Source: Halichondria panicea
Taxonomy: Eukaryota > Porifera > Demospongiae > Suberitida > Halichondriidae
Assembly: GCF_963675165.1 (NCBI RefSeq)
Contig: NC_087390.1
Location: 3,238,001 to 3,302,000 of the forward strand
Length of the DNA: 64,000 nt
Direction: 5' to 3'
Of the stretch, positions 8,985-60,299 are shown piece by piece. How positions within the stretch are numbered: the stretch's first letter is position 1; the number at the start of each line of letters is the position of its first letter. The translations under genes were made by a program, and so were the position numbers. The notes below the pieces were generated by a model that was given only the letters and a program-made list of their open reading frames with translations, was not told the DNA's origin and ran no database searches.

Positions 8985-9266
8985 AGACTGCAGCTCAGTT
9001 GAACCATGAGTGCTCAAATGAAGCTCTTTGCTTGTTGCTGGGCCTGAGTAGTGCTGACATAGACGAAATCGATAATGATCCAAGAAACGTCTACAGTTCC
9101 CAAGGCAAGTGTTACACTGCTCTGTTAAAATGGAAGAGCAAAAATATTGATTTAGACAATCCATCAAAATCGACAGCTACTTACGCTCGATTAGTAGAAA
9201 TTGCTAAAGAGGACAAAGACAGAGAGGCAATTCGAGAAATTCACAAGGCTTGTGTCAAGTATGTCA
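8985..9266 (+). CDS. DEATH-domain exon of NLR A (intact cassette)
   Basis: Flanked by a TGTGCAG acceptor and a GTAAGT donor, with phase 1 at both ends. The 94 codons are fully open and read as a Death domain: helices around NEALCLLLGLSSADIDEI, then the conserved LLKWKSKN tryptophan block, then YARLVEIAKEDKDREAIREI. Death domains recruit adaptors by homotypic contacts. The symmetric phase means the exon can be included or lost without shifting frame, and the paralogous gene C has no counterpart between 20381 and 21377. This exon is undamaged although its neighbours are broken. Confidence 0.8.
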
Positions 9267-9704
9267 GTAAGTTACATGTATGGCATAATTATATATTATC
9301 CTTTATATTGATCTAGCCACTTTGATCATTTAGCTACGGCAGCTTCCTTATAGTAACTAATTATGTGGTAAAGCATAATTATGCCTTGAGGTGTAGCCGC
9401 ACGAGGGATACGGTAAGGTAAAACTGACTGTGTGTGTGTGTGTGCATGTGTGTGTCTGTCTGTACTGTAACTGCTCAACGGTTGCAATGCGACGAAAACT
9501 AACAGCTTCTATAGGCTTCTAGCCATTGGATTTTGATTCGTGGATTTGCAAACTAAAGCCTAACAGTGAAGGCTGTTGCAGTCTCTTTCATAGCATCATC
9601 TGTTCGCACAAACTTTCTATTCAACTTATGAGTTAACCATGCTCTAAAGCGCTAGCTGTTTGTTAGCTACAAGACTCAGGAAAGAGCTGCAAAGCTGCAT
9701 ATCC

Positions 9705-10430
9705 AGAGGAGGTTCGACAGGGTCAAAAGCTCACTAATGAATTCATCACATGAGCTTATGTTGTGTGCAGTAAATTTGCAAGTGTGACTGCTTGTCGCGC
9801 CCTGATTCTTGTGATAAAATAGCCCTTCATGTTACTGCTGCTACCAATTGGTTTCACTTTTAGCTATATACTGCGCCCCTCCAGAAAAATCGTGCAGTCT
9901 CTAAAAGGAGTGACCTCACACAAAGGTCGGCGTCTTGTCATGTCAAACTGACCTCTGAACTGTGGAAAGTAGGAGCTACCGTACTGTAGAGCGAATGTAG
10001 AGCTCAGCTACGTATATGTCCAGCCTATTGTTTTTATTAAATCGCCTATTATTCCCGCATTATTCCTCCAAAGCACAACATAAGCACAACATAGACCCCA
10101 TGCATGTTATCGCACAAGTAACATCAAACCAGAGGAGGTTGGACAGAGTCAAACGGTCACTAATAAATTCATCACGTGAGCTTATGTTTTGTGCAGTAAA
10201 TTTGCAAGTGTGACTGCTTGTCGCGCCCTGGTTCTTGTGATAAAATAGTACCTTCATGTTACTGCTGCTGCAAATTAGTTCACTTTTAGCTACTGCGCCC
10301 CTCCAGAGAAATTGTGCAGTCCCTTAGGGGTGACCTCACACAAAGGTCGTTTTTCTGTCATGTCAAACTGGCCTCTGACCTTTATAAAGTAGGAGCTACC
10401 TTATTGTAGAGCGAATGTATCGCTCAGCTA
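9705..10430 (+). repeat. Tandem direct duplication of ~300 bp (offset 423 bp)
   Basis: 9705-10015 and 10128-10430 are near-copies (GAGGAGGTT…GACAG…GTCAAA at the start; TGTAGAGCGAATGTA near the end) within intron 2 of NLR A. A 65-residue open frame across the second copy is not protein-like. Confidence 0.75.
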
Positions 10431-13400: not shown

Positions 13401-13537
13401 AAAATCGTATTGTTAATGTGTGATACTATAATATAAATGCGAGTGGCTATTAAACCGCATACTTTGGTATAGCACAATTAATTTGAGGCCTGTACAACCC
13501 ATTGAAATCGCGGCGTTTAATCCAAGGAAATAAGTTA

Positions 13538-15890
13538 TAGAGTCGATTGATTGAGTATATGCAGAACAATAGCATGAATCCCATTTCAATGGAAGACCTT
13601 TTAACTGAAAAAGACGGCTCACTTCCCAAAGCCGTAATCATTCAAGGGGTCCAAGGAATAGGCAAGTCGACTTTTGCTTGGAAGTTTTGTAGAAAATGGG
13701 CCAAAGGAAAAATCTATCAGCAGTATGACCTGGTTGTTTTGTTGCGCATGCGTGATACAAGAGTGAGAAAAGCAACCAAACTTGGCAATCTCTTCTTTTC
13801 AGAAGATGCCTGTTTTTTTAAGAAAGTAGCAATGCAAGCAGTTTCTAACGGTGGAAAGGGCATTCTTATCCTGATGGAAGGAATAGACGAACTTCCTGCT
13901 TCTTGTTTAGCTGATGGCATGCCTCTTTCTAACTTGCTTCAAGGTGAATCTCTTCCAGAAGTTACCATCATAGTAACCAGTAGACCCTGGGCTGTGCAGA
14001 CACTTGAGGAAGAGTGTGGGGATCAGATTTCTCGACAGGTGGAAATCTTGGGCTTCACAAGAGAAGACATCTTGAGGTACGTTTCGCATGCTTTTACTGG
14101 GGAGGAAAAGACAGAGTTCTTAGAGTACCTCCGCTCCCACCCTCAGCTGGAGTCCATCATGCACATCCCACTGAATGCCGCCTTTGTTGTTCAGATCTAC
14201 AAACAATTTCGTCGTTCTCAGCAAGCTATTCCTAGCACTTTGACCCAGCTCTACACAGCTCTTGTTGAGGGTCTCTTGCTCCGCTATACCAAGTCAATTC
14301 CTGAGTTTTGTGCTCTCAAATTTATCTGTCTTTCAAGCTTACCAGAACCAATACAAACATATTTCCATCAGCTTTGCTTACTAGCTTTCATGAGTTTTAC
14401 CAAGTTGACTTTTCAAGTCACTTTCACCGATTCAGAGGCAGCCTTGTACGAGTGTTTTGATTTCCTGGGTCTCATGCAGTCCTCAACTGAACTCTCAATA
14501 AACACTAGTACCACTGTATCCCACAGCTTTCTGCATTTCACCATCCAGGAGTTCCTAGCAGCTTACCATCTCTCTAAACAGCCGTCCCAAGTGCAAGAGC
14601 TGTTTTTGGAAGTTCACAGCAAAGATCCACAATTTTCAATGCTTATCACATTTCTGGTTGGATTGAACAGCAGCGTTCTGCATTATTTTACGCTACCATA
14701 TACAGATTCAGAGTGTCAAGATTTGTCCACATTTCACTTGCACTTGTTGTATGAAACACAATCACCTAAGGATGTATGCAAGTTCTTAGGAAGTAAGACC
14801 GTGAGGCATTGTCCTACCCTAACAAGTACATCACTTGACCTACATGCATTATCATATTGTCTTTGCTCCAGCGATTGCAATTGGTATCTAATAATCAGTC
14901 TGCGAAACTTATCAACACTATGTTCAATGTCGATGATTTTTGTGAGGGGCACATAATGGGCCTGGTAATTAGAGATGCCTCTGCACGTAACCTTCAATTA
15001 TTCTTTTCTCTTCCCAAGCGTCTCTTTTCAAACTTGTATGAATTAGAAGTTAGAGATTGTGAACCTGTTGGTTCTGTTGTAGACATCTTAAATGACGGCC
15101 AGTTAACGAACTTGAAACAATTTTGCTTTGTGAGCAAACGTGTACATGCATCATTAACATTGATGTTTGAAAGTCTAATCACTTCTCACCCAAAACTTGT
15201 TCACATTGGAATCGAAAGCACTGTAATCTCCTCTTCTGATATGGTAGGATTATGCAAATACATGACTTCTCGCTCTGGCTCACCTGAGCTTACAGTAGCT
15301 CTTATGCAAAACAGTATTAAATACGAGTCCTTTCGTTTACTGATTAGTACTGTTGCATTTTCAAAGGTTCTTACCCATTTGGATATTTCTTTAAACAATC
15401 TCTCAATAGAAATATTAGAAATGCTGTCAGTTGCTCTTTCTGCTAATTTATCTTTGAAAACATTAGGAGTGTATGATTGTTCAATCCATGGTGAAGGAGC
15501 TGAATTACTATCCAATGGACTGGAGTTGAATCAAAGCCTCCTCGGATTGGATCTTAGCCGTAATCACATAAATATGAATGGAGCGGCTGCCCTGGCTTCA
15601 ATGCTTACTGTGAACACTTCACTAAAAATTCTTCGCCTTTCACACAATAAACAAATTGGTCATGTGGGAGCTCTAAGACTGATCAGTGCACTGCAAGATG
15701 ACAACAAGACTCTTGAAACACTTAGCCTCCCTGCAGAATGTGAGCCAATTGAATATGGATCAATCTTAATGGATGATACGAAATAGTGGTCGTATAAAAT
15801 TTATCGATAATACAAGTTCAACATCGAACACAATAGCACACAATTTTACATCATTAGACATATGGCCTTATCTATAGTGAACACTCTATT
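13538..15890 (+). pseudogene. NLR gene B: NACHT-LRR copy lacking N-terminal domain
   Basis: Homology to gene C starts abruptly at the residues SIDEYMQNNSMNPIS, with no CARD or DEATH exon and none of the ~85 residues that precede this point in C exon 2. The preceding 13230-13537 is unrelated sequence. A usable ATG at 13559 opens about 465 codons containing GVQGIGKST (P-loop, Pro to Gln), LILMEGIDE, TSRPWA and HFTIQEFLAAYH. A one-base deletion near 14925 shifts the frame. The LRR part continues in the other frame (14857-15786) and ends at a TAG about 30 residues early, after a 2-base deletion near 15775. As it stands it could make only a truncated NACHT protein. Divergence from C is low, so the copy is young. 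It arose by tandem duplication next to A. Confidence 0.85.
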
Positions 15891-17240
15891 CCACTTTTAT
15901 CATCATGTTTAAAATCCTCGTGCATGTAATCGATTATATTTCCTATTTTGTATATAAATTATGGAGGGCCCATTTGGGTCAAAAATAATGTTCTCACAGG
16001 TCTTGAACACATGAGGAATCCTTCTATTTGCATGGCTAAAATAGCCAAGACATGCATGCTATATAAGTCGTGCAGCCAACAGATTTCTCATACACGCATC
16101 ATTTAATACACTGAACATGAACAAACATCAATAGTTCTGTATTGAATGATAAAAGGACATTCTCAGAATAAATTAAAGTTCAGAGGCTTTGTCCGCTATG
16201 CATGACCTTGAGAGTACACTCTAGAAACCTTGGCAGCAGGGTAGTTATTTCGTTTCATTCGTATAGCCTGACGTTGTCAGCTTCAGCTAATCTAAGTTAC
16301 AGCTAGAATTGAGCTAACATTGCTAACTTATCACCCCGGATTCTCTATAAAGTAAGAAAGTCATGCAATTCTCGATCAACACAATTATCTTATATCTCTA
16401 TAGTCAGACATTTTAGAATTACGTTCAAATGTGGCTCTCTATATATGTAGCCACCTTTATTCAAATTCTCAGTTACTTACGACCTCGATCTGGTAACACA
16501 AATAGCAAGGATGGAAAGCATGAGGATAAACCGAGCCGAGGGCATAGCAAATTAAGATACACACCGCTATGGGGAGGTGAGAACTACTGCAATGTCATTT
16601 TGCTCCACGGTAGTGATAGTGTGCATGCGCTTATTCGTGCTGTAAAATCTAGGGAATCCCCCTCTCTTTCTTTGGGTGAAGAAGCTTAGCTATGGCTTTA
16701 TATGCTCGTTGGTCACGAAGGCTTGCACACTAATAACTGTATGAAGCCAGAAGAGGCCTTCATCTACCTCTAAGACGTTGAATGGTCGGGATTCTGAGCT
16801 GGTTCTGTACCAGGCCTTTGTGCTTCTGTCCTATCAGTAGGTGCTTCCAACTGTTGCTTGCAAACCAATTACATTGCTATTAGCTACGAACGATTACTAA
16901 AATTACCTTCGTAGGAATGTAACTAAATTTTTAATTATTGGTCAACCCACCAAAGGACAAATTTTTTCCGCAAAGCGTTCAAAGAACTTGTATCTAAACG
17001 CATCGTTTGGAAAGTCATTCTGAGAGCTACGTACGAATGCATCATCACTTAGTTTTGAAATTGGACATTTTAAGAGTTAAAGTAACAAAATTAATGAATT
17101 CACACTAGTTAAACGCAACTGAGAAAGGATATAAGGACCACATATGACATTATATTAAAGCTCCATATACACAATGCTCATACAGACACTACAAAACAAA
17201 AGGATTTAACGTCTAATTTCTAAGAGAACAAACTATTGTC
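15891..17240. other. 3' flank of NLR B, duplicated at 24.0-27.0 kb
   Basis: The stretches GCCAACAGATTTCTC, GAACATGAAC(A/G)AACATCA, TTGGCAGCAGGG(T/C)AGTTATTTCG, AACCCACCAAAGGACAA and ACTACAAAACAAAAGGA occur in the same order here and after NLR C. This shows that the duplicated unit includes about 1.3 kb of non-coding 3' DNA. The 86-codon open frame at 16429-16689 has no recognisable domain and is probably chance. Confidence 0.65.
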
Positions 17241-17394
17241 AAAGAGCCCCCCCCCCCTTTTGTGCTTCACCAACTCCTGATTTGTCAATCTATTCTGCAC
17301 TGTAGCATGCGAGTTACTACAATGATGTCATTTAATGAAATGTGGGCAGGGCCATCTAATGCGCATGCTGACTGCTGAGGAAAAGATGACCTTT

Positions 17395-17495
17395 TTTTAG
17401 GTAAAATTCCAAATTACTCAGCGCCTGCTTTGGCCCTTCAACTGATTTGAGCCCTGCCCTTCCCAAAATCCTGGCTACGCCACTGAAAGGCATAC
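17395..17495 (-). repeat. Transposon-like remnant (GTGGCGTAGCCAGGATTTTGG type)
   Basis: On the minus strand the sequence reads AGTGGCGTAGCCAGGATTTT followed by GGGAAGGGCAGGGCTC, an end motif seen in many animal interspersed repeats. It lies just 3' of U2-like copy 2. Identification rests on that motif only. Confidence 0.4.
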
Positions 17496-17529
17496 TAACT
17501 TTGTTTTTATTGATATTTCCCCAGAGGGG

Positions 17530-17700
17530 AGGGCCACCTTGGCAGTAGTGCAATACCATGGCAACCCATGAGACAGGTGAAGCAAGCTTCAGACCATGTC
17601 CCAATAGTCAACAATTAAAGTAAAGGCGTGGGGCAATAGCCCCGTCGAAGCTTTTACACTTCGAAGAACAGTTAATCTTAGCCAAAAGGCCAGAAGCGAT
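17530..17700 (-). pseudogene. U2 snRNA-like copy 2, decayed
   Basis: Same duplicated segment as copy 1: the minus strand starts ATCGCTTCTGGCCTTTTGG. Relative to copy 1 it lacks about 12 nt (the whole branch-site recognition segment), its Sm-like site is altered to AATTGTTGA, and the stem-loop III/IV area has substitutions (CCCATGAG for CCCACCGG). The TATA-like upstream element is changed to TATAAGAA. It is very unlikely to work as U2. Flanks on both sides remain alignable to those of copy 1. Confidence 0.7.
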
Positions 17701-20067
17701 ACTGCAATGTCTGGTAGAACCCTTCTTATACTCTTAGCTATGATACAGCTTTTGTGGTGGTTGCATTGTGAGGTGAGAAATTTAACGGCTTCAAGGGCCG
17801 TCACAAGGAATGTTAACAATCTGTCTACATCACGTTTTGCGCAGGATAAAGCTAAAACTAAATCCAGCGGTAACATTCAACATATTTTCGGACATAGGCG
17901 TAATCTCAGTATACGGTATAGGGGTTCCGACAACCGTGCGCTAACATTAATTGTTGCTGAATCATAGAAGAAGTACGTGCTGCACTCCTCCTAGTCCTCG
18001 GTATTGAGGACTAGTTTTAGTATCATTACTCTCAGTAACAGTAAATGCTGATTCAGAAAAATTAATACCAGGTGCACAGTTGTCGGACCACCTCTGCGGT
18101 ACAGCTACAGTATTTTCGGTGAAGGTTTGAGCCACCTTGGAAATTTCTTGTGTGTTTCCCTGCATCTGTGAGTATAGCTTCTTGATGAGATAGAAGAGCG
18201 TTCGTATTCATGCACTCTTGGTATCAGCAAGTCACATGCAGCCTGTGAGCATGTGTGTGTGTGTGTGTGAAAGAGGGAAGGTATATAGGTTACGGCGCTT
18301 TTATCGAGTTAGGAGTCTCAGTGGTGTTACATCTCAGTGGTGTTACAGTATTATTTAAGGGTGACCCCTTCCAAAATTCCACTACTCAAATTAATGACTT
18401 GTGCTACACAAAGTAACCAACACAATCTCAAAAACCTGTAGCCTAAACTAGATGAGCAGTCGTTTTGAAATCCCAAAACTCTATAGCTAACTTTACAAAC
18501 CTCCTCAAACGACTATATACATGTAATACAACGAAGACACAACCTCATCTATATATAATTATGCACCTGTAGCCTTATAGCTTGAACAGTCCGGGGTCTT
18601 GGTGACAATCTCTGATAGGGATTGAGCTGATTCTGGCACTTTTCAGCAACTCTTTCGGAGTCTGTATCATCCAATACACGTGTGTGTGTGCGTGCAGGTG
18701 GGAGGGGAGGGGGAGTGTAGAAGCAATGACCCTTAGGTAAGCTCCAGGATAATCACTTGAACAGCTCACTGACTACATCTGCAAATGGCCATTTTGAAAT
18801 AAATGTTACATAACTATCCATTCTCCCCCCCCCCCCCCTACAGTCTACATACACTCTACAGTGCCTTTAACCCCGTGGCCTGGGACAAAAGTTTCTAGTC
18901 ACTACTTAAAAATACATGCAGCTTTTTGTCTAGTAATCCAATTCCCTCAGCCAATTTTCCTATCACCGACTGCATGCATTGTCTGGGGTGCAAATGACTT
19001 GGGGTCAAAGTTTATAAGTTTATAGATCAGGCCTTTCCCTGCAGAGATATACCATAGTTGATGTAATTACAGAGCCAGAAAAAAGTTTCACTTTGCAGTG
19101 GCATATTTTTAGAACTATAAAAATTGCTGAGCTGGTGCTTAAATTACGGTGGCGCTTATTTTGCGCTACAGCTAGTTCTAGCGTTGTTTCTTAGTACACA
19201 GGTGGATTTACGGTTTGGTTTGGTTTTACAATTTGGCAGTTATACAGTACAGCTGCATCCAATGCATGTGCATAATAATATTTATAGGCCAAAAAGAATG
19301 GAAAAGTAAAGCTGACGTCGTTGGTATTATAAGTGCCAGAAAAATAATTAATTAAGGTGACATAATTATTTTCGCAGGTATCTGCTATTTCTGCTAATGA
19401 GAGTAATGTTGTACTCGCTGATAATTGGAAAGTGCAATGAATAAGCTATAATTATGAACAACATTAATTTCATAACTTGAGCCAGAATTTAATACCAGCA
19501 AGATGAGTCACAGGAATTGCACTTAACTACTTGAGTTGGCGCTTAAAATAATATGGTGGCACTGTAATTAAGGTATAACGTATAGACAGTTTGAACAAGA
19601 GTTTAATACGTGAAATAATTGCCAATCCTGTGTGTTATTAAACCGATTTTACTGACTGTAATAAGTGTAATGAATTCAGGCAATAATTATCAAGACAAGA
19701 TCATGCAAGATGACAGGGAACAAAAATTAATGGACCAGAGATCATCTATAGCCAGTCGGTGTAGTTTGTGTACTGCACTCCTGCATGATTGCATGATTGT
19801 GGTCAGTGGGTGTGTAAGCTAGAGGGAATTCCGCCTCACATGCATTTGCAAGAGCTCTGTGGTCAAAAAGACAGGAACAGTTGTCTATACTGAGCATAAA
19901 ATTAGACTGGTAGATACAAAGCTAAACCTTGTTAGTAGTCTCTTACAATAGATCTACAGGCAGCACATTTCATTCAGCAGATCTATTGCAAATCATAGTC
20001 AGCTAGATGATTCATAGATAATAATTTGAGATCTAGACCACATCACTTTATATACATAGTATTAAAT
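17701..20067. other. Upstream half of duplicated NLR unit 2
   Basis: Aligns with 4877-7567 with many indels. It carries a short (GT)n run near 18250, a C-run near 18826-18838 and a family-1 inverted-repeat element at 19050-19576. No open frame looks coding. The NLR C promoter should lie in the last few hundred bases; I see no clear TATA box. Confidence 0.5.
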
Positions 20068-23000
20068 ATGGCTACTCAGGACTTCAAGACCTCAGCAGCC
20101 AAGGCTTTCCGTGAGCACTATGACAAACTGGTGAAATCCATCCAAGAAGCAGACCTGCCTGTGTTAGGAGCTCAATTCTTCAGTCGACAGATAATTTCTC
20201 GGGAAACAATGGAAATGGTTGGAAATGTGTCCACCTCGAGAGTTCTCAGGGTGTCTAAGTTGATGTTAGCTGTGATGGATCACCTAGACGTACATCCGGA
20301 TAAGTTTGAGAGTGCCTTGGACGTCTTCAGAGAGGAGCTGGTGTATGCTGAATTCGCCAGTGTCATTGCATCGTCTATTGGTAAGTGAATAGGCATTTTA
20401 ATACTGCCTAAGCAAAGTGTTTGTGCACTAGATTTAGATCTAGGGAGGCCATGCCCATTGGAAAGGGACTCGACTGTAATGCAATTAGAGTAATTCACAA
20501 ACTATAATATGCTTAATGCGTGGGTGATAAATTTTTTGCCTCGATACACGTCGCCATGCAAAGATGTGTTTCACTCGAGGCTGATGATATTTCATGCAGT
20601 CATAATAAGCGCGTGGACGGTTGTACGTAAGTCCTTGTGACGTCTACATTCTTGTGGTTGCGCGAGATTCTTCACACACTTTGATAAGTAGCTTACCAGT
20701 CCCTTTAATTCCAAGGGCAAAAAGGGCATAGCCTCTAGATCTTAACGAGATGTGCATTGATTTGTACAATTGCGAGAATTTATTCATGTACTGCTGATGT
20801 TCAGATAAGAATGTGTGGGGCGTACCTTTGTGTAAGCATGTGTGATAAATTATTAATGTGAATTCGATTAGTAACCAGCAATAGCTAGGCCTCTGATTTC
20901 ACGAGGCAAAACCGAGTGTTGTTTACCTTGTACAAATAACCATACTAGATTGCTGATCGTTATGATTCAGTTTTAAATAGCATTTTTAGCTGCGCTGTTA
21001 TTTTAAAACGATCCCATTTACTTGCTTGACGACGTGCAATTACTGGTCCGGATGTGATACGCTATTAATTGCACTGCTTCACTGATTCCAGTGCAATAAT
21101 AGTACGATTATTGGAGTCAAAGATGTGCTATGTGCATTGTAGTTGAAATACTTGTTGATCATAAGGTGGAAATACCCCAGGTAACCGCAAACCATGACAT
21201 TGTTATGATTCACTATATATGGCAAGAGTGTGTGTACCATCCTGGGGTATTTTTTGCCTTTTTTGTGTGCAATAAGTCATAAGCGTGTGAATTCAATTGT
21301 GTGCTCATAATACCCTAATAATTAAATTAATGTTCGTATGCAATTACAAGCTTCTTTACTATCTAAAAACTGTACAGGTAACAATCCTACTAACTCTCAA
21401 CACTCCCTAACTATGCTGACGGCCTCACCAAGAACAGCTATCAAAAAATATGCCGACTACCTGAAAAAGGTGTACCTTCGATCAAAGCTCCCTGTCAAAG
21501 GAAAATGGCCTCCTGCTCCCTGTAAAAAGATCATCAAGCTAGCTACTATTGAAATTGAAGAGCAAAATTCACATTCAGCATTGTGCAAGCTAAATAGATC
21601 CGAGTCGATTGATGAGTATATGCAGAACAATAGCATGAATCCCATTTCAATGGAAGACCTTTTAACTGAAAAAGACGGCTCACTTCCCAAAGCCGTAATC
21701 ATTCAAGGGGTCCCAGGAATAGGCAAGTCGACTTTTGCTTGGAAGTTTTGTAGAAAATGGGCCAAAGGAAAAATCTATCAGCAGTATGACCTGGTTGTTT
21801 TGTTGCGCATGCGTGATACAAGAGTGAGAAAAGCAACCAAACTTGGCAATCTCTTCTTTTCAGAAGATGCCGGTTTTTCTAAGAAAGTAGCAATGCAAGC
21901 AGTTTCTAACGGTGGAAAGGGCATTCTTATCCTGATGGAAGGAATAGACGAACTTCCTGCTTCTTGTTTAGCTGATGGCATGCCTCTTTCTAACTTGCTT
22001 CAAGGTGAATCTCTTCCAGAAGTTACCATCATAGTAACCAGTAGACCCTGGGCTGTGCAGATACTGGAAGAAAAATGCGGGGATCAGATTTCTCGACAGG
22101 TGGAAATCTTGGGCTTCACAAGAGAAGACATCTTGAGGTACGTTTCACATGCTTTCGCTGGGGAGGAAAAGACTGAGTTCTTAGAGTACCTCCGCTTTCA
22201 CCCTCAGCTGGAGTCTATCATGCACATTCCCCTGAATGCCGCCTTTGTAGTTCAGATTTACAAACAATTTCGTCGTTCTCAGCAAGCTATTCCTAGCACT
22301 TTGACCCAGCTCTACACAGCTCTTGTTGAAGGTCTCTTGATTCGCTATATCAAGTCAATTCCTGAGTTTTGTGCTCTCAAGATTATCTGTCTTTCAAGCT
22401 TACCGGAACCAGTACAAACACATTTCCATCAGCTTTGCCTACTAGCTTTTATGAGTTTTACCAAGTTGACTGTTCAAGTCACATTCACCGATTCAGAGGC
22501 AGCCTTGTACGAGTGTTTTGATTTCCTGGGTCTCATGCAGTCCTCAACTGAACTCTCAATAAACACTAGTACCACTGTATCCCACAGCTTTCTGCATTTC
22601 ACCATCCAGGAGTTCCTAGCAGCTTACCATCTCTCTAAACAGCCGTCCCAAGTGCAAGAGCTGTTTTTGGAAGTTCATAGCAAAGATCCACAATTTTCAA
22701 TGCTTATCACATTTCTGGTTGGATTGAACAGCAGTGTTCTACATTATTTTACGCCACCAGATTCAGAATATCAAGATTTGTCCACATTTCATTTGCACTT
22801 GTTGTATGAAACACAATCCCCTAAGGATGTATGCAAGTTCTTAGGAAATATGACCGTGAAACATTCTCCTGCCTTGACAAGTACATCACTTGACCTACAT
22901 GCATTATCATATTGCCTTTGCTCCAGCGATTGCAATTGGTATCTAATAATCAGTCTGCGCAACTTATCAACACTATTCTTCAATGTCGATGAGTCTTGTA

Positions 23001-23935
23001 AGGGGAACATAATGGGACTGGCAATTAGGGATGCCTCTGCACGTAACCTTCAATTATTCTTTTCTCTTCCCAAGCGTCTCTTTTCAGTCTTGTATGAATT
23101 AGACGTTAGAGATTGTGAACCTGTTGGTTCTGTTGTAGACATCTTAAATGACGGCCAGTTAACAAACTTGAAACAATTTTGCTTTGTGAGCAAACGTGTA
23201 CATGCATCATTAACATTGATGTTCGAAAGTCTAATCACTTCTCACCCAAAACTTGTTCACATTGGAATCGAAAGCACTGTAATCTCCTCTTTTGATATGG
23301 TAGGATTATGCAAATACATGACTTCTCGCTCTGGCTCACCTGAGCTTACAGTAGCTCTTATGCAAAACAGCATTGAATACGAGTCCTTTCGTTTACTGAT
23401 TAGTACTGTTGCATTTTCAAAGGTTCTTACCCATTTGGATATTTCTTTGAACAATCTCTCAATAGAAGTATTAGAAATGCTGTCAGTAGCTCTTTCTACT
23501 AATTCATCTTTGAAAACATTAGGAATGAAGTATTGCTCAATCCATGGTGAAGGAGCTGAATTACTATCCAATGGACTGGAGTTGAATCGAACCCTCCTTG
23601 GATTGGATCTTCGCTATAATCGCATCAATATGAACGGAGCTGCTGCCCTGGCTTCAATGCTTACTGTGAACACTTCATTAAAAATACTTTGCCTTTCACA
23701 CAACAAACAAATGGGTCATGTGGGAGCTCTAAGACTGATTAGTGCACTACAAGATGACAACAAGACTCTTGCAACACTTAGCCTCCCTGCAGAATGTGAG
23801 CCGATTGAGTATGGATCAATCTTGATGGTTGATATACGAAAGAGTGGTCGTATAGAATTCATCGATAATACAATTTCAACAACGAATACAATAGCATACA
23901 AGTTTACATCATTAGACATATGGCCTTATGCATAA
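20068..23935 (+). CDS. NLR gene C: intact CARD-NACHT-LRR receptor
   Basis: Two exons, 20068-20380 (donor GTAAGT) and 21378-23935 (acceptor GTACAG), join in phase 1 to give 956 residues. Residues 1-104 form a CARD-like helical death-fold domain (FREHYDKLVKSIQEADLPVL … FESALDVFREELVYAEFA). NACHT motifs: Walker A GVPGIGKST at 215-223, Walker B ILILMEGIDE at 287-296, TSRPWA at 325-330, and the winged-helix signature HFTIQEFLAAYH at 511-522. Ribonuclease-inhibitor-type leucine-rich repeats run from about 788 to 920 (LTHLDIS, LLGLDLR, LKILCLS). Such receptors sense microbial or danger signals in the cytosol and oligomerise using ATP. This is the only full-length reading frame of the three local copies. 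The upstream ATG at 20026 is out of the homologous region, so 20068 was chosen because it matches the start in copy A. Confidence 0.92.
21168..21256. repeat. Small foldback in NLR C intron 1
   Basis: AATACCCCAGGTA at about 21170 is inverted as ACCATCCTGGGGTATT at about 21237-21252, about 60 bp apart. Short non-coding inverted repeat. Confidence 0.5.
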
Positions 23936-24781
23936 TTTCTAGTGAGCACTCCCATTAATATTGATTTTGTATAGTTTATCTCCCACTTTTATCATCACTG
24001 GATTAATTTTCCTGTTTTGTATGGAGGACCTGAATTTGGAATCCTCCAATTTGCATAACTAAAAAATACTAAGCTAGTATTAATAATCAGTCATTTTCTG
24101 TACTTTACGTTTCCTGTGTTGTAATGTTTACATGCATGGGTTCTTACTAGTTAACACTTTTTTTAGTCAGTCTCGAATACCCGCCTTAAAGCCCTTTGTG
24201 TATGGGAGCCTCTGCTCACTGTCTTTGTTGTACTTAGTATTCACAGTCTCTGTTTTGTGCATACTATTCAGGGCATCACACAGGGGGGGGCGGGGGCGCT
24301 CGCTCCCCCTAGCTCCAGATTCGCCCCCCCCTGGGATTTAAGCCGTAACACACTTGTGACACACTAACCAAACAAAGATCTTGTCTTATCAATATTACAA
24401 TGTAAATCACAGGAAGAAGTTCTACTCTTTCTGTTTCATATGTCCACAATATCCTCTAATTCACTATATGTAAGTAAATTAAGGGGGCGATTTCTTTAAT
24501 AAAGTTAGGTGTGCCGTGTCGGCTGTGTCGCTCAGGCTGCCATATTTTGTCATATGAGAAAGCTTTGTAGTACCCACAGGAATAGACACAGCTATTTTAT
24601 CTATCTAAGCTGACTATTAAAGCAATTGTTTTAGCACCTATAGGCAACTTGAAACTTCATCAAATTAATCGTTGCCACTCGCATTTTTATACAAAACTAT
24701 GTTTTGCAATTAATTTTGTACTTCATAAAAACCCGATATCTCAGTTCCTAAGAATGCAATATCAGACAGTCTAAATAATAG

Positions 24782-27792: not shown

Positions 27793-28965
27793 TTAACTGT
27801 AACAATGTTGAAAATAGAAAGGCAGTAATAAAACATCACCAGATCTAGAGCTAAGTATTCTAAATGCAGTATGTTCAACATAGTTTCCAAAGTTAATTTC
27901 CCGAATCGATTGAACTGGAATTGCCAGGAATAGGTTTTTCAAAGTGTCGATATGTTGATCGATGTGCTGAAAACTCTCTTTGGATACAACACCGCTCAAA
28001 TGAACGTTTGTATATCTGCAGTAGCTTCTCACTTCAGAAAACAGATAAAGTTTTTCTTTTTTAGTGAATAACTTCAGAAGAGGTTTGTATCTCTCAAGTG
28101 CAACTTGTTTCATTAGAGTCTTATACTCGGTATGGAACAGCTCAGTAGCGAGTTTTTTCCAGAAATAGTCCAACGTCTTCATGAGAGTTTCTCGACCCCA
28201 GGACTCCTCAAATGGAAGTGGCAAAGAGTAGATATTCTCCATTGTATTGTAAGCTTCACTCTGGCTCCAAACATTCACTGACAATGTTGTCTCCATTGTA
28301 ATTACACAATGGAACCAGTACGAAGGTATATAGAGTACTTCACCCGGATACAAAGTAATATCAATTCCATTAAGCTTTTGTATCGTATCTGCAGTCAAAA
28401 CATCACTAACTGACATGTACGTCTGTCTGTAGAATTGATGCAAACATGGATACAGTTTCAACTCCAAATAAGCCTCCGGTGGAAACAAAACAAATCTCTT
28501 CTTGCCGTATGATATGGAATGAAGGTTATGCGATGTATCGTAGTGTGTGTAAGCTGTTACATTCTCCATGCCAAACCAAAAGTTTACTTGTCCAAGTTCT
28601 TGCTTGCTAGTGGTCCAAAAAGTCAATAGCTCAATCTCCTTTCTTGAATACAGTGTTTCAATTCCAAGTAATTCCACTCCTCCACTTGAGTAGTAATAAT
28701 GTCCATTGAATTGCTGATTCAACAAGCTGAAAAACCGCTCTCTAGGATAAATTACTTCGATAAATGGTTTCGAAACAACAAACTTATTGACCTGGGACAA
28801 TGGTTGGTCATTGGCAAAGTACCGAAATACATTATTAGTTCCTTTTTTGCTTAAAACTTGCACAACATTTGATTCTTTCGCTAAAATCTCAGGTGTCCAA
28901 AATGCCGATGCCCATTTATCAAACGGTGTATTTCGGAGAACTACAGGAGTGCCTTGTCCCACCAG
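27793..28965 (-). CDS. JmjC/cupin_8 2-oxoglutarate Fe(II) oxygenase (main exon)
   Basis: One long exon of 390 codons starts right after an acceptor TTTATAG (28967-28966) in phase 0 and ends at a stop at 27795-27793. It opens with LVGQGTPVVLRNTPFDKW, the usual cupin_8 N-terminal strand. The metal triad is visible: H140 and D142 in AYTHYDTSHN, and H218 in VLYIPSYWFHCV (numbered from GTG at 28962). K155 in YGKKRFVLFPP is the likely 2-oxoglutarate contact. These enzymes hydroxylate protein or tRNA substrates; the best-known relatives are FIH, JMJD7, HSPBAP1 and TYW5, and I cannot choose between them. There is no ATG at the exon start, so at least one upstream exon exists. A candidate is 29593-29539. 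The C-terminal ~130 residues are helical and not family-diagnostic. Confidence 0.85.
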   Translation of the reverse strand: MVGQGTPVVLRNTPFDKWASAFWTPEILAKESNVVQVLSKKGTNNVFRYFANDQPLSQVNKFVVSKPFIEVIYPRERFFSLLNQQFNGHYYYSSGGVELLGIETLYSRKEIELLTFWTTSKQELGQVNFWFGMENVTAYTHYDTSHNLHSISYGKKRFVLFPPEAYLELKLYPCLHQFYRQTYMSVSDVLTADTIQKLNGIDITLYPGEVLYIPSYWFHCVITMETTLSVNVWSQSEAYNTMENIYSLPLPFEESWGRETLMKTLDYFWKKLATELFHTEYKTLMKQVALERYKPLLKLFTKKEKLYLFSEVRSYCRYTNVHLSGVVSKESFQHIDQHIDTLKNLFLAIPVQSIREINFGNYVEHTAFRILSSRSGDVLLLPFYFQHCYS

Positions 28966-36839: not shown

Positions 36840-39751
36840 ATGTCTAAGCCAGCTGAGTACAAAGCTTTCATGGATTGTTACGATGATTTTATACAGCTTG
36901 TAGAGCAGGCACCAAACGACGTCTGTAATCAATTGATTCCTCTTGAATTACTACCACCAGCAGTGATAAAATACGTTAGTAATAACGTTCATGATGATGA
37001 TGAAAAGGCGTCTCGAATATGTAACACTCTGTCGAGCCAAATCCAAATCAATTCAGAGGCTGTTCATTTATTTATTAATTCTCTAGAAAAAGCTGGTAGG
37101 TGGACACGTTATGCAGTCGAAAATTTCCAAAAAGCACTGGAGAACCGCAAACAAGAAGAGTGCATTGAGTCCAAACAGAAAATTACCAAGCCACAGCACA
37201 TACAAGAAAACTGTGAGTTGTGGGGATGATATGAAGGTTAATAATCGTGTACATATAGTCTGTATATGTACTATGAGTCTTTTCTCTACTTGCTTTAGTG
37301 TCCTCAACCATCGCAAGTCCATTACCACATCGAGCTGCCATCAACAATCACCACCTCCTTGACAACAGTGAAGATTTTTTTGCAAAAACTGGGTGCTGGA
37401 ACGGTAACAACCTTTGTGCATTTACTGTAGGAATTGGTCCAATGTAGGTTACTATTATATATGCACACGCATGATTAGCCTCGCACAGATCTAGAGTTGT
37501 ATTTAAGTATAATTTCAGGAGAAAGAAGGAGAATAGACTTGCTGGAGAATGAGATTTGTATGAAATAGCAAATACATAATTATACATTGTTGGTTAGAAT
37601 CAGTCTCTCAAAAGCTGTGCTATCTCTTTCCAAGAGTTAGTGTCGTTGTTGGCTTTGTTCATGTGATGCTCTTATATAGCTACAGCCTCTTCCAGTTAGT
37701 AATTATACCAATAGTAGATCAGTTTGGAGGTAACCGAATGTAGCCACACCCAATGCCGCATTACCGAAGCGTGACATTCCTGAGCGTGACATACATACAT
37801 CAAAGGTTTTATGAGATACAATGCAGTTAGTTGCCTCGCGCTAAGGCGCTCAGTAACAAAGATTAATTAAACGATCGTGACCAACCTCCTCCGATTACCA
37901 TGGATTGGTAATGTGTTGAGTTTAGGGAGTCAGACATTTCATGGCGTTGTTAATTGTGCGAGCTACTGCTTTTGTACTGAACAACCTATATAACTTATTA
38001 TTACAGGTCGACCAGTTGTGATTGTCCTAGCTGTTTTGCTAGGTGTTGCAGCAGCTTTCAGTGGAGGAGCTTGTGTGTACATGTATTCTGGAGAGGATAT
38101 CGCCACTGCTGTTAGCGTACCAAAAAATCAAGAACGAAATGAGAGTAAAATAGAGTTCTACGAAGTTTTTCCTCAGCAAAATGTACCTACTATTAATAGC
38201 CCCTTTTTTGGTCGAGCCAAAGAACTAAAAGAAGTAAAAGAACTTATTATCTCAAACGCGGTCCGTATTATTAATATCAATGGTCCACCTGCTTTTGAAA
38301 AATCCAGACTAGCAAATCAGTTGGGTCATGAATTACTGCATTATTCTGGTGTCATTCCAAACATTCGATATATAGATACAGTGACTTCTAGAAAGTCGTG
38401 GTATCTCTGTTCAACCAGCACTTCACAAAAACAAGAACGTAATAGATATTCTGGCACACATGATATATCTGACACTGAGTCTCCAGAAAGTAGTGGTCAA
38501 AGTGTATATGACGACAATTTATGTACGTTGATTACATGGCAGAAAAAAAGAACTGTATTGATATTTGATAACTGTGACCCAATCCTGCACAGTAATGATC
38601 GAAAGCTGTTTGTAGATATGCTTCAAACATTTCTATCAATGAATGTCCAGATATTTAATGTGGTAGTTGTATCTCAAGAACAGTTGTTTTTCTTAGATGA
38701 TGGTTTTTACTCAATTCATCTAGAAGCACTTTCACCAATGGATTCTCAGGCTATGCTAATGCATTACATACAAAACCTGACTACTGCACAAGCTAATGAC
38801 CTTTACGCTGTTGTTGGCGGTTGCCCTCTGGCACTAAAAGTTGTTGCAAAGCTTCTTTGTGAAAGAAATAGTCTGAAGTCGTTGTTAGCAAAGCTGAAGC
38901 AAAACGTAACATTTACATTATCTAAAAAGTCTACAAGAGAAGAGGATCAGTTGCACAAAGTAATAGACATTGCTTACAAAAAGTACATGGACCCTCTGAG
39001 TAGAAAATGTGCTCGTGTTCTGAGTCTCTTTCCAGGGTCTGTGAGTGAAGAGATGACCAACAGTGTCTTATCTGAAATTGTAGACCCGTCGTGTATTGAA
39101 GATGTCATACGTTTGTCGTTTTTGGAAGAGTTTTCAATCGAAGAATTACGAAGATTTTCTATCCACACTGTTATTCAAGGTTACCTGAAATCTGTGCATC
39201 TTATCCAGTCTGATATAAAAGCTTTCAATTCATCTTTTCTCAGTTTCTATTCTGATTATTTAACAAATGCCATGAAGCAGAGTTACATGTATGTTCATCG
39301 AAACATAAGCAATGAAGACAGTTACTTATTAAATGATTTGGAATCTCACAATATGAATGAATTTGTACCAATGCTCCTATCAACAGACATTGATGAAGAG
39401 CTTACATTGTATTCTGCAATAGCGCTAGGCTTTCTAATCTATGAGAAAAGGATTCCTGAGGCCTATACTCATGACGTCTTCCTAAAAGCACATAACTTAC
39501 ACAGCAGCTCTTCAATATTTGACAGTCTTTGTGCTCTCTCCTCCAAAGACGTATGCACGAGCATCCTATGGAAATCATTTTCGCTTCTTGTAATACAGAA
39601 TGAATGTAATAGCTATTTTTCCTTCATTTCAAATCTATTCTTTGCTCACCCGATATGTTCTCAACTCTATAATTGCTCCAAACTAAATCCCTTCGATTAT
39701 CAATACACTGTGTTACAAGAAATTGTGAACCAAACAGAAAAGTCCCTATGA
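36840..39751 (+). CDS. Membrane-anchored CARD-TM-NB-ARC STAND protein
   Basis: Exons 36840-37212 (donor GTGAGT), 37299-37403 (donor GTAACA) and 38007-39751 join without frame change (total 2223 nt, 740 residues). An in-frame ATG at 36807 is an alternative start. Residues 1 to about 110 form a CARD-like death-fold (YDDFIQLVEQAPNDVCNQLI …). A strong transmembrane helix follows at about 162-184 (VVIVLAVLLGVAAAFSGG). The NB-ARC-type ATPase begins at FFGRAKELKEV (226-236). Its P-loop position reads NGPPAFEKSRL (251-261), lacking the GxGK(S/T) form. Walker B is TVLIFDN (342-348), the GxP motif is GGCPLAL (430-436), and a winged-helix LSLFPGSV segment follows. The sensor-1 arginine appears missing (VVVVSQE). 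The C-terminal ~250 residues are helical and unassigned. STAND NTPases act as signalling switches; the altered P-loop suggests weak or absent ATP hydrolysis. The architecture is inferred by eye. Confidence 0.78.
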
Positions 39752-39894
39752 GGGGTGTGATACTTTCAAACACTTATTGTAAGATGTCAACTACATGCAT
39801 ACAAGTGGATTATGGAGTTTTTGTCTAAATGGACTCTCGTGATTAATGTTTTTGCTATATTACTTGTAGTGGCACTAGTGTATATGGAATATCT

Positions 39895-40641
39895 ATGATA
39901 TTGCGGGATTTTTTTACAGTTTTGCTGATTGCAGAAACATGTATATTTTTTTGCGTTGCATTAAATATACTGTTGTACTTTCCAGACCGTACAGATTCGT
40001 ACTATCAATTGTATGCTGAGTTTTGGTATGACATCTGCATCAGTATTTCAGATTATGTCGAGGAATGGCAATGTACTCATCTACCTACTTCCTTCATCAA
40101 CAACACAATGTCAGACATGTGCAACAACACAACTGCAATTGTCGAGGAACATGGTATGTCACTTGTAATTATTAGTATGGCAATTCCCCTATTCCTGAAA
40201 ATACTTGTTTTCTCAATAATCCTCTTCATTTATGGTATTATAAACTACCAAGATGTTAATTCTAAATTTCTCCAAGGCATAATAGTTGGTTTCCTAATTG
40301 GTTCTTTTGTTTTTGATATCGGTATTTTGATGCTTGGCTGTTCTGCTGTCTCCAGATTTATGACCTTTTCCCCTGCGATTTTTTACACCATATACATACT
40401 TATTGAATTGCTGCCCATTTCATTTTATGTATTTGGCTACATTATTTACCACCACAAGAATGCTTTTATATATCCACTATTAAACGTCAATCAGAACCGG
40501 ACCGAACGAATATCCCTGGGATTGTGTATGAAACCCGTATTCGTGAGCTCACTCTTTGCAGCACTTTGTTATGTTATGATGTATTACTGTGCACAATTTA
40601 TTAATTACTCTAGTAATGGTGGTCTTGTCCATTCTTTATAA
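39895..40641 (+). CDS. Multi-pass membrane protein, unrecognised
   Basis: A 248-codon frame begins 143 bp after the STAND gene's stop. It has about five hydrophobic helices (FFTVLLIAETCIFFCVALNI; SLVIISMAIPLFLKIL; GIIVGFLIGSFVFDIGI; FYTIYILIELLPISFYV; VFVSSLFAALCYVMMYY) and a Cys- and Asn-rich loop after helix 1 with NNT/NNTT glycosylation-type sites. No family recognised. A short frame at 39812-39895 (MEFLSKWTLVINVFAILL…) encodes another possible helix just upstream but is in a different frame. A TTTTTTTACAG acceptor at about 39910-39920 raises the possibility that this is a 3' exon of the STAND gene or of a short upstream exon. Either a separate gene or an alternative C-terminus. Confidence 0.55.
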   Translation: MILRDFFTVLLIAETCIFFCVALNILLYFPDRTDSYYQLYAEFWYDICISISDYVEEWQCTHLPTSFINNTMSDMCNNTTAIVEEHGMSLVIISMAIPLFLKILVFSIILFIYGIINYQDVNSKFLQGIIVGFLIGSFVFDIGILMLGCSAVSRFMTFSPAIFYTIYILIELLPISFYVFGYIIYHHKNAFIYPLLNVNQNRTERISLGLCMKPVFVSSLFAALCYVMMYYCAQFINYSSNGGLVHSL

Positions 40642-57234: not shown

Positions 57235-59313
57235 CAAAAATTCCACATTCACCGTACGAAACTACTTCAACGGAGCACTGCTATATTTTATACATCTGTG
57301 CCAAAAAGGCATCATCAAAGAACCGCTGGCACATCTAAGTCAGCTGAAGGGTACAGTGCAACACAATTGATGAATGTGGCACGCACAGAGGGTTTGAACA
57401 TTGAAGTCCACTGGCAAGATGGCGACTCTTCTTCTAGCAAACGTGTCTTAAAAGTGTTTCCCGGTGCCAAAATCATGTTGTGCGGAGGTCATGCTGCAAA
57501 GTCTCACCTCAAGCTACTGATGGTTCGAGGCAAGCAAAAGAAGTTCACTGCCGCACTACGAGACAGGGAGAAACATTTTTTTCCAGAAGTTGTTAATGTC
57601 GAGTGTCACTGCAAATCCAAAAATTGTAAGGCAGGATGCGGATGTCTGACAGACGTGTTCTGCCAGCGTTCGAGAAATAGCTTCTCCACCATACTGTCGA
57701 CCTGCGAGTCTGCCGTTGACTTCTCAAGATGACTCAGTCATCTAACACACCACGTACAGGATGAGCACCAATGGGAGGAAGAACAAACATGTGAAAAACA
57801 CTATCTAACCACCTGTAAAGAATGCGAGTTCGAATCTGACGGCGTGGTTGCTCGACAGTGTGACTTTCACCCCCTTACACTATGTAACTGCGGCAAGTGT
57901 GCCGATAAAAATCACCACGAGTGTGAAGGGAAACTGTATCGTACAAAAGAGGCATTACGTTGCCCCTTTCACCTACTAGCATACAAAATTGAGTGCCTGA
58001 CGAGAACAAAAATGGCCGACAAGCTAGTCCACCCCATCCTGAAGCGTGGCCACTCCAATTGGCTCGAGAGTTCACACAGTGTTCTGATACGATTTAGACA
58101 AAAGCACGTATTCTTAGAGAGGCTCCATTACATTGTCTCAACCAACCTCGGCCTATTGCAAGCCAACATGACACACGAGTATCAACAACAGGGGGCTGAC
58201 TATCACTGGAAAACCGAGCTCTACAAAAAAATGAATCTACCATTGTACAAAGGTGTACAAGAGGTGTTGTCCAAGCAAAATCAACAGAGGAAGAAAGTAC
58301 TTGACGGAGTCAAAACAGAAAAGACCAAAAAACGACGAGTGCAGCTGAAGAAGCTAAGAGTGATAGATCGACAGCAACGCATTGTCTGGACAGACCAACA
58401 TGGACGTGACACATACGGAAAAAAAGCAACCAAGACTGCGTCCAGCCCTAAGAACAAAAAGCCAAGAGCCAAGAAACAGAGCAAAGACCAAGACGCTCAC
58501 AGCCAAAAGCCAAGAGCCAAGAAACAGAGCAAAGACCAAGATGCTCACAGCCCTAAGAACAAAAAGCCAAGAGCCAAGAAACAGAGCAAAGACCAAGACG
58601 CTCACAGCCCTAAGAACAAAAAGCCAAGAGCCAAGAAACAGAGCAAAGACCAAGACGCTCACAAGGATGGACAGGACAGCAGTAACAACTCAGACTACGC
58701 AAGTGAGGAGTTTGATATGGACACGTTTGAAGATGACATCCTCAGTGGGTGCATTTGCGGTGCTAATGGAAAAGCTCACAAACGATACTGTCCCATGAAC
58801 CCCAAAAACTATCACAGGGAAAAGAATCCCACCCGCCCTTACAACAAAAGGCTCAACCTGTCGCGCACTTTCGGTGATGCATATGCCAGAATACACTACG
58901 ACGATGTCCCAGACGAGCATAACGTTGTCACTCCTGATGGTGATGCACATACCAAAATAAACGACTCAGACGTAGAGTGTTACGACGGTGTCCCAGATGA
59001 GCCTGATGGTGATGACTCAGACATAGAGTGTTACGACGGTGTCCCAGACGAGCATGATGTTGTCACTCCTGATGGTGATGCACATGTACCAATGACTGAC
59101 GTAGACAGTGACCATGAGATCCCAGACGAGCATGTCAGTGCTCACAAACACATCAGCGAACCACACATCAACGATCGAACCAATGCAGCACAACCCGAAC
59201 CACAAATCAACGTAGACAAGACGGACAGGCTAGAAGTTGGCATGTACGTTTATCTTCACAGCAGCCGTTTTGGAGAGCAGCACCTTCTCTGTCGGATTGC
59301 TAAAAAAAAGTAG
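57235..59313 (+). pseudogene. Mutator-like transposase domain ORF with one premature stop
   Basis: One reading frame runs 57235-59313, interrupted only by TGA at 57730-57732. Conserved transposase segments are NIEVHWQDGDSSSSK and IMLCGGHAAKSH, a Cys-rich zinc-binding stretch (CHCKSKNCKAGCGC, CDFHPLTLCNCGKC), then GHSNWLESSHSVLIRF and HYIVSTNLGLLQANM. These are hallmarks of the Mutator-like transposase family common in cnidarian and sponge genomes; it would excise and insert DNA in the nucleus. The stop lies where an Arg is expected (DFSR-stop-LSHL), consistent with CGA to TGA. Residues encoded by 58440-58665 form a Lys-rich repeat; an acidic DGVPDEHDVVTPDGDAH-type repeat follows. The frame ends at TAG 59311-59313 just after an A8 run. 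Confidence 0.8.
58440..58665 (+). repeat. In-frame 57-bp coding minisatellite
   Basis: Four copies of a 19-residue unit (PKNKKPRAKKQSKDQDAHS; one copy shortened) inside the transposase ORF. The period is 57 bp at 58552 and 58609. Highly basic, possibly a nuclear or DNA-binding tail. Confidence 0.9.
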
Positions 59314-60299
59314 GCAATCTTTTTCGGTTGTATTGTGGCGGTGGTATTCTTAACGCAAGCTATTCCCCAGAAGTGTTGACAATTTCTTTGAGTGACAGTA
59401 ACCACAGCCTTTCACTAGGGAATTGGCGCGCTTCTCCAAATATCTCTTTGGCTGCTGCCGCCCTTGAAGCTGCCTGCCTTGCTAAGTGCAAGTGTGTCAT
59501 TCCCAAACCTGTCGTTGTAGACATTTCCGAAGATGATGGCCCTACCACAGCTGCTACAAGTGAAAAAGTATGGATGGAGAACTGTTTATACAAATTAACC
59601 ATCGCAGAAAAGGAAGAGGTAGTATCTTCTTGTGGTTGGCTCAATGACAGGGTCATCACTGCTGCTCAGCTATTAATGCTACAGCACTCTCCTTTGATGA
59701 AGGGATTGCAACCACCTACGCTTGCACAGCGTCAGGCCTTCGATTGTCACAAGGATCAGATCTTTGTGCAAATTATCATTGTTGGTAACAGTCACTGGTG
59801 TGTTGTATCGAATGTGGGCTGTGACGAAGGTACAGTGAATGTGTATGACACGATGTTTGCTAGACCTTCGAATATCACCGTACGGGTTGTATGTAGCCTT
59901 GTCTCCTGTTCAACGCCCACACTATCCATCAATATGATGGATGTTCAGAGGCAGTCAAATGGGTCAGACTGTGGCGTGCTTGCGATTGCTATCGCTTTCG
60001 AACTCTGCTGCCATAGAGATCCATGTATCCAGAAATTTGGCAACACAGTTTCTATTCGATCTCATCTTGCCAGGTGCCTTGAAGACTGCAAGCTTACCAC
60101 ATTTAGCACAGGAATTCGTAGGTGCCGAAACAAGGTTAAATTTTCAAAGCAGGTTGAAATTGCTTGTTTATGTCGAGAACCCAAAGATAAAAAATCGATG
60201 GTGAAGTGCAAAAACTGTAAAGCCTGGTTCCACAAGCACTGTTGCAGGGAAACCACACAAGTTGTAGTTCCCTGGACCTGTACATTTTGTAGAAACTAA
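59304..60299 (+). CDS. Ulp1-type cysteine protease plus PHD finger (likely C-terminal part of transposase polyprotein)
   Basis: The frame is open from after TAA at 59301-59303 to the stop at 60297-60299, with no good ATG near its start; a -1 shift in the A8 run at 59302-59309 would join it to the transposase. Numbering from 59328, the Ulp1/SENP (C48) fold shows GWLNDRVI (103-110), His156 in NSHWCVVSN, Asp174 in VYDTM, Gln209 and Cys215 in QSNGSDCGVLAIA. C48 proteases cleave SUMO or related Ub-like tags. Residues 280-321 form a PHD finger (CLCREPKDKKSMVKCKNC, FHKHCC, WTCTFC) with a complete Cys4-His-Cys3 set, a chromatin-reading type module. Ulp1 domains are known in several large DNA transposons. 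All catalytic and zinc ligands are intact. Confidence 0.85.
   Translation, partial: KKVGNLFRLYCGGGILNASYSPEVLTISLSDSNHSLSLGNWRASPNISLAAAALEAACLAKCKCVIPKPVVVDISEDDGPTTAATSEKVWMENCLYKLTIAEKEEVVSSCGWLNDRVITAAQLLMLQHSPLMKGLQPPTLAQRQAFDCHKDQIFVQIIIVGNSHWCVVSNVGCDEGTVNVYDTMFARPSNITVRVVCSLVSCSTPTLSINMMDVQRQSNGSDCGVLAIAIAFELCCHRDPCIQKFGNTVSIRSHLARCLEDCKLTTFSTGIRRCRNKVKFSKQVEIACLCREPKDKKSMVKCKNCKAWFHKHCCRETTQVVVPWTCTFCRN

Follow-up and report, generated by a model that had tools for sequence, protein, structure and literature searches.

A CARD-family exon, a predicted transmembrane helix and an NB-ARC-like STAND domain with an altered P-loop in a gene of the sponge Halichondria panicea

Gene structure and the CARD-family exon

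The stretch of DNA analyzed here, referred to as the window, comprises 64,000 nucleotides of the H. panicea genome (C14:3238001-3302000 of a 131-Mb assembly with 39 contigs). On its forward strand, a three-exon model (36840-37212, 37299-37403, and 38007-39751) was open throughout with GT-AG borders and consistent phases, encoding a product of 740 aa. Exon 1 (36840-37212) contains a CARD-family domain and ends in phase 1 at a GTGAGT donor, and its ATG, donor, and phase were kept in the nearest paralogue, L037. Exon 3 (38007-39751) encodes a predicted transmembrane helix, an NB-ARC-like STAND region, a winged-helix region, and the stop. The candidate exon 2 (37299-37403; 105 nt, frame-neutral, with GT-AG borders) was not accepted, because it matched L037 only partially and with two stops within the match; a genome search with the 740-aa query at E ≤ 1 listed no further match for it. 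Skipping this exon keeps the frame and results in a product of 705 aa. Three exons in consistent phase had been proposed in an earlier note on this DNA; the outer two hold, whereas the middle one is doubtful.

Several other features were identified in the window. An NLR cluster at 8840-24000 contains a Death-like exon at 8840-9316, whose Pfam Death match (0.0073) falls short of the cut-off, a CARD-like exon (about 20068-20385), and NACHT-LRR frames at about 11160-15786 and 21326-23935, the latter with a NACHT match of 6.6e-23. When one NACHT was searched against the genome, 98 scored matches were obtained, with arrays on C14, C13, and C7. The minus strand encodes a Cupin_8/JmjC-type frame of 390 aa at 27793-28965 (Cupin_8, 4.7e-27). 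Adjacent frames at 57235-60299, which lie beside a basic repeat region and look like a mobile-element protein, match a Ulp1-type peptidase (C48, 2e-4) and, slightly under the cut-off, a PHD finger (5e-5).

Alignment of the window gene with L037 demonstrated that the acceptor is conserved as well as the start, donor, and phase, with an intron of 0.8 kb in the window and 1.9 kb in L037. The window gene is real. Neither copy has an ATG in exon 3 ahead of the helix, and an upstream coding exon is therefore needed. Splice sites at seven loci were ranked with a simple consensus count. At six of them (the window, L037, L039, L040, L041, and L042), a phase-1 donor came first or equal first; a phase-0 candidate equalled it at L039, and L043 had no good donor. 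The best acceptor candidate was in phase at the window, L037, L039, L042, and L043, whereas at L041 the in-phase acceptor ranked second behind one out of phase, and at L040 the better candidates were all out of phase. The phase-1 donor and an in-phase best acceptor thus occurred together at the window, L037, L039, and L042.

The earlier description of a CARD-like domain is supported by family homology, although the window exon itself matched no CARD model in the Pfam search. Thirteen members of its family (alignment A1) are 34-68% identical to it; at E ≤ 1, eight of them matched Pfam CARD (best 2e-5) and ten matched CARD_2 (best 8.4e-5). Judged by these family matches, exon 1 is probably a CARD. 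A CARD-family profile searched against PDB sequences returned eight hits up to E 10, with no CARD chain among them.

A CARD profile was built from 14 of 20 CARD exons taken, leaving out six minus-strand loci whose sequence had come from the wrong strand. The window and L037-L048, translated in six frames, were searched with it. A same-strand hit, weak in some cases, was found upstream of the STAND exon at six of the eight loci with homologous STAND genes (L037-L044). The domain E-values were 1e-7 for L039, 2e-4 for L040, 0.006 for L043, 0.09 for L042, and 0.66 for L041, while the L037 exon was part of the training set and its hit is a matter of construction. L041 and L042 are near-copies of each other, and their hits lie near noise because a CARD-like exon belonging to a NACHT gene in the window reached a similar score (0.09). 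The profile gave no upstream hit at L038 or L044. Upstream of the helix-STAND gene of L044 (C6), the region L044:2600-4100 contains pieces that resemble, by eye, Death and CARD domains in tandem; one piece matched no Pfam family, and the CARD profile gave no hit there.

The 740-aa query also found 20 CARD-exon matches of the window type in a single stretch, C12:5.87-6.12 Mb. Ankyrin-type frames follow CARD exons in L045, L046, and L048, with a Pfam ankyrin match for L045:4918-5766, the sole such frame run against Pfam. A frame with a strong helix at L046:6133-7140 gave no Pfam match at E ≤ 0.1. The neighborhood of same-family CARD exons and ankyrin exons raises the alternative of two genes in the window, one with only a CARD and, beside it, a helix-STAND gene for which the true first exon has been overlooked. 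The missing CARD hits at L038 and L044 and the splice signals of L040, L041, and L043, which are not clean, would agree with such an arrangement; however, the upstream coding exon needed in the window and L037 and the phase-matched donor and acceptor at four loci argue against it, and we consider it improbable. At the sequence level, the exon that encodes the helix, NB-ARC-like, and winged-helix regions and, in most relatives, a multipass tail is preceded by a CARD-family exon, with splice phase matching at the closest paralogue.

Predicted helix and STAND region in the window gene and its homologues

The predicted transmembrane helix (38012-38080, residues 162-184 of the 740-aa product) was located by hydropathy. 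Its segment VVIVLAVLLGVAAAFSGGA (residues 163-181) has a mean Kyte-Doolittle value of 2.46 over 19 residues. The stretch around the GGCPLAL motif also exceeds 1.6 (1.69), so hydropathy alone is no proof of a helix. A helix of 2.1-2.9 located 41-86 residues ahead of the P-loop was found in the window and L037-L043, in agreement with the single strong helix noted earlier. It was also found in two more distant genes, L064 (C8; Death exon of 9.6e-5 upstream) and L006 (C17; NACHT 5e-20), which were chosen after the helix had been noticed in them. Two NACHT frames of the window reached 0.25 and 0.12 upstream of the P-loop, within the same-frame part.

With the 740-aa query, 61 genome matches were obtained at E ≤ 1, including the window's own, and at least eight homologous STAND genes were identified, with the helix preceding the P-loop in all seven measured (L037-L043). 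The STAND-exon matches were 80% identical for L037 (C14, 3.36 Mb), 42% and 36% for L038 and L039 (C14, 4.6 Mb), 35% with one TGA for L040 (C11), 27% for L041 and L042 (C5), and 28-29% for L043 and L044 (C6). The order of domains had been presented as one without a described family; since helix and STAND region recur in L037-L044, most with the upstream CARD-profile hit given above, it is not unique to the window. The architecture is common to a family, and the P-loop change and lost tail described below are private to the window copy. Other places with NB-ARC in this genome are L001/L002, L004, and L005. One scan of prokaryote genomes, in which the query was the single protein sequence of the window STAND exon and which thus reaches close relatives only, gave 14 pattern matches, none of which was confirmed.

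According to Pfam analysis, the 740-aa product matched ATPase_2 (2.3e-7; 31.3 bits against a cut-off of 33.2) and NB-ARC (0.023; 14.4 and 15.1 bits, below the curated cut-off of 23.5). NB-ARC scores of the relatives were 18.6 bits for L037, 20.0 for L038, 12.2 for L041, and 29.0 for L043. The window gene had no NACHT or LRR match at E ≤ 1, and Pfam gave no WD40 hit in the window, L037, L038, L041, or L043. A profile of nine STAND exons (A4) matched 51 PDB sequences at E ≤ 1, the best being AfsR (4.6e-8), PH0952 (6e-7), NRC4 (5e-6), and NRC2 (2e-4), followed by AAA+ proteins and some unrelated chains; the winged-helix region of the family aligned to AfsR in this profile match. Walker B (VLIFDNCD, 38555-38578) and the GxP motif (GGCPLAL, 38816-38836) are present, and together with the ATPase_2 and AfsR matches they support the previously proposed ATPase as NB-ARC-like. 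The His of an MHD-like winged-helix motif (39164-39166) is invariant in all eight rows of alignment A3. At the sensor-1 position, where AP-ATPase/NB-ARC proteins carry the Arg of a TSR/TTR motif, Gln was found in the window and L037-L042 (7/7) and Arg in L043.

The Walker A position (38282-38305) reads GPPAFEKS in the window alone, with GAA (Glu) at 38297-38299 where the homologues have Gly. The loop is GPPAFGKS in L037-L042 (6/6), GPPGFGKS in L043, and GSPGFGKS in L044; all eight homologues thus fit the pattern GxxxxGK[ST], and the window does not. The P-loop called degenerate in the earlier note is therefore altered in one residue, the Gly before Lys, with Lys and Ser retained, and its loss does not characterize the group. 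The idea that the whole family lacks a functional P-loop was rejected, given the canonical loop in the homologues. In P-loop proteins generally, Glu in place of the Gly before Lys is expected to abolish ATP binding, and the window P-loop probably no longer binds ATP.

C-terminal tail and selection on the window copy

Counting segments above 1.6 after the STAND region, seven were found in L037, six in L038, five in L040, three each in L041 and L042, and two in L039, while L043 had none in the 987 aa examined. A tail of three to seven helices is thus predicted in five of the eight homologues, with L044 outside the measurement. The window product is shorter than its relatives and has its tail homologue in a separate open frame on the same strand (39847-40641), which encodes 264 aa with five hydrophobic segments above 1.6 and is 52% identical to the L037 C-terminal tail over 193 aa. 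This frame is out of frame with exon 3, whose own frame stops at 39749-39751, and is reached only via that stop and frame changes. The single donor scoring 6/9, at 39606, can be matched in phase to acceptors at 39920-39995; an intron rejoining the tail to exon 3 in this way is possible but not supported. Searched against the genome at E ≤ 0.1, the L037 tail matched itself and the window frame only, and it matched no Pfam family; the other relatives' tails therefore share hydropathy but no detectable sequence similarity.

The substitution rates between the window and L037 differed along the gene. Over 542 codons of exon 3, dN was 0.092-0.094 and dS was 0.20-0.22 (dN/dS 0.41-0.47), and of the amino-acid changes, 23 fell on the window branch and 29 on that of L037, while 52 were unresolved. 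The tails showed a dN of 0.49 and a dS of 0.82 over 246 codons (NG86), with 0.14 and 0.30 in the best-conserved 62 codons and 0.58 and 0.86 in the following 133. The CARD exon (36840-37212 against L037:2995-3358; 121 codons) gave a dN of 0.20-0.22 and a dS of 0.15-0.20, and its dN/dS of 1.0-1.46 means that no purifying selection is seen there. These ratios suggest that the CARD exon may be under relaxed or diversifying selection beside a constrained STAND exon.

The window copy could also be a decaying L037-type pseudogene whose early lesions are the altered P-loop, the stop at 39749-39751, and frame changes in the tail. The private P-loop substitution, the out-of-frame tail, and the CARD exon ratio of about 1 or above agree with decay. 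On the other hand, exon 3 remains constrained without an excess of changes on the window branch, both it and the CARD exon are open with net indels relative to L037 in multiples of three, and the 264-codon tail frame is still open, an outcome with a chance of about 3% under purely neutral substitution if 0.1 per site is assumed. Decay of the window copy is accordingly judged unlikely; this reading is compatible with either membrane side, and the estimates given in this report are not exclusive of one another.

Membrane orientation and comparison with known systems

Cysteine conservation was analyzed in five rows, the window and L037-L040, which are 27-41% identical apart from one pair at 79%. 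Invariant columns made up 73 of the 424 gap-free columns. Cysteines were invariant in 11/11 cases with L038 or L039 as reference and in 11/12 with the window, L037, or L040; with the window row left out, 11 of 12-16 were invariant. Taking L038 as reference, 11/11 cysteines against 62/413 other gap-free columns corresponds to a hypergeometric probability of 2e-9, relatedness being ignored. In a control of five NACHT domains from the same genome (30-50% identical), 1 of 5-10 cysteines and 45/344 columns were kept, a difference in cysteine conservation with Fisher values of 0.003 to 3e-5. Cysteine is generally well conserved, and the NACHT control addresses this in part only. Cysteines 294, 332, 494, 522, 693, and 716 are jointly absent from L041-L043, a loss that counts as two lineages because L041 and L042 are near-copies, and cysteines 668 and 676 are absent from L043 only. 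Two of the 11 sit in the Walker B and GxP motifs, where pairing is not required. The invariant cysteines and the tail are the more unusual features of the family, beyond those of the earlier note.

The net charge around the helix pointed to a cytosolic N side at eight of ten loci (the window, L037, L038, L039, L041, L042, L064, and L006) and was reversed at L043 and L044; the flanks were hand-chosen and of unequal length, and L040, with an unresolved N flank, was left out. N-X-S/T sites were not enriched over shuffles, with 5 seen against 4.9 expected in the window and one-sided p values of 0.13-0.98 across eight rows. The invariant cysteines and helix-flank charges, both read from sequence, suggest that the STAND part may lie outside the cytosol, and they make a moderate case for an oxidising compartment.

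Alternatively, the protein may be anchored in the membrane with a cytosolic STAND part, the helix serving as a tether (a hairpin or N-out) and the cysteines as structural thiols or metal-binding residues. The animal NLR/AP-ATPases known so far are generally cytosolic, and this alternative agrees with the sequon counts and the reversed charges at L043 and L044. Two sponge studies likewise report NLRs as, or mainly as, cytosolic (PMC12909245; PMC6208332). Against this alternative stand the invariance and coupled loss of the cysteines, so different from the NACHT paralogues, and the N-in charge bias at most loci; an N-out helix would also place the CARD outside the cytosol. A cytosolic STAND part is thus considered rather unlikely.

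The explanation we prefer, at close to even chances, is that the window gene belongs to a small membrane-anchored CARD-STAND family with a cytosolic CARD and an extracytosolic STAND part, in which the window copy would be a decoy or non-switching member. Several observations count against it: the sequons lacking enrichment, the reversed charges at L043 and L044, the CARD exon ratio of 1.0-1.46, the missing or near-noise upstream CARD hits at L038, L044, L041, and L042, and the imperfect splice signals at L040, L041, and L043. The CARD would face the cytosol and the STAND domain, presumably braced by disulfides, the ER lumen or the cell exterior. Nucleotide- or ligand-driven oligomerisation of the STAND domain could then gather the CARDs across the membrane and seed CARD/caspase signalling. 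Lacking the P-loop glycine and an in-frame tail, the window copy probably no longer switches with ATP. If translated, it would most likely serve paralogues such as L037, to which it is 79% identical, as a decoy or as a partner that does not switch. A further-reaching proposal is put forward tentatively and with some doubt: the family would consist of STAND ATPases acting outside the cytosol, each with an NB-ARC ectodomain that is braced by disulfides and lies at the cell surface or in the ER lumen, one helix connecting it to a cytosolic CARD, and a multipass tail. Such proteins might sense nucleotide in the lumen or the extracellular space as a danger signal, and the window gene would be a built-in partner that does not switch.

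If the preferred explanation is true, the switch would be located across the membrane from its CARD, in an apparently oxidising compartment; the APAF1/NLR module would then also occur in transmembrane receptors of early animals, and which nucleotide or ligand is read there would become a question. The window copy, a natural P-loop variant next to canonical paralogues, would be useful for testing decoy or helper models.

The family resembles the AP-ATPase/NB-ARC STAND proteins (APAF1, CED-4, the plant NLR NRC4, and AfsR of bacteria) in its Walker B, GxP motif, and winged helix with a conserved His. APAF1 and CED-4 carry a CARD in front, as the window gene probably does, judged by family homology and splice phase. 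Unlike these proteins, the window family has a predicted helix between CARD and NB-ARC, the relatives of the window gene have a multipass tail and not WD40 or LRR, the sensor-1 Arg is replaced by Gln in the window and L037-L042, and the P-loop Gly is missing in the window copy. An APAF1-like gene at L001/L002 on C13 of this genome has NB-ARC over the cut-off and a CARD-like frame by eye. It differs from the window gene in its loop, GMAGFGKT, which a stretch of 1.84 immediately precedes in the frame examined.

A literature search covering titles and starts of abstracts found no paper on a CARD-transmembrane-NB-ARC protein among the matches listed, and the available portions of PMC12909245, PMC6208332, PMC8242945, and PMC8195603 describe neither a CARD-helix-NB-ARC order nor a cysteine-rich STAND domain. 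NLR architectures of Dysidea avara include transmembrane domains, the first report of which, in Amphimedon queenslandica, is credited to Yuen et al. 2014 (PMC12909245), and a D. avara NLR gene with a predicted transmembrane domain rose on challenge with microbial patterns (PMC6208332). Membrane-bound members have been reported for all receptor classes of H. panicea (PMC8242945), and large expansions of Death-fold/TRADD-N architectures for Amphimedon (PMC8195603). Like the window gene product, the membrane-bound sponge NLRs of PMC12909245 are immune-type proteins that combine a STAND ATPase with a predicted transmembrane segment. They are NACHT-LRR proteins, whereas the window gene is NB-ARC-like without an LRR hit and its relatives have a multipass tail. 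Since membrane-bound sponge NLRs have already been published, the window gene is a variant on a known theme.
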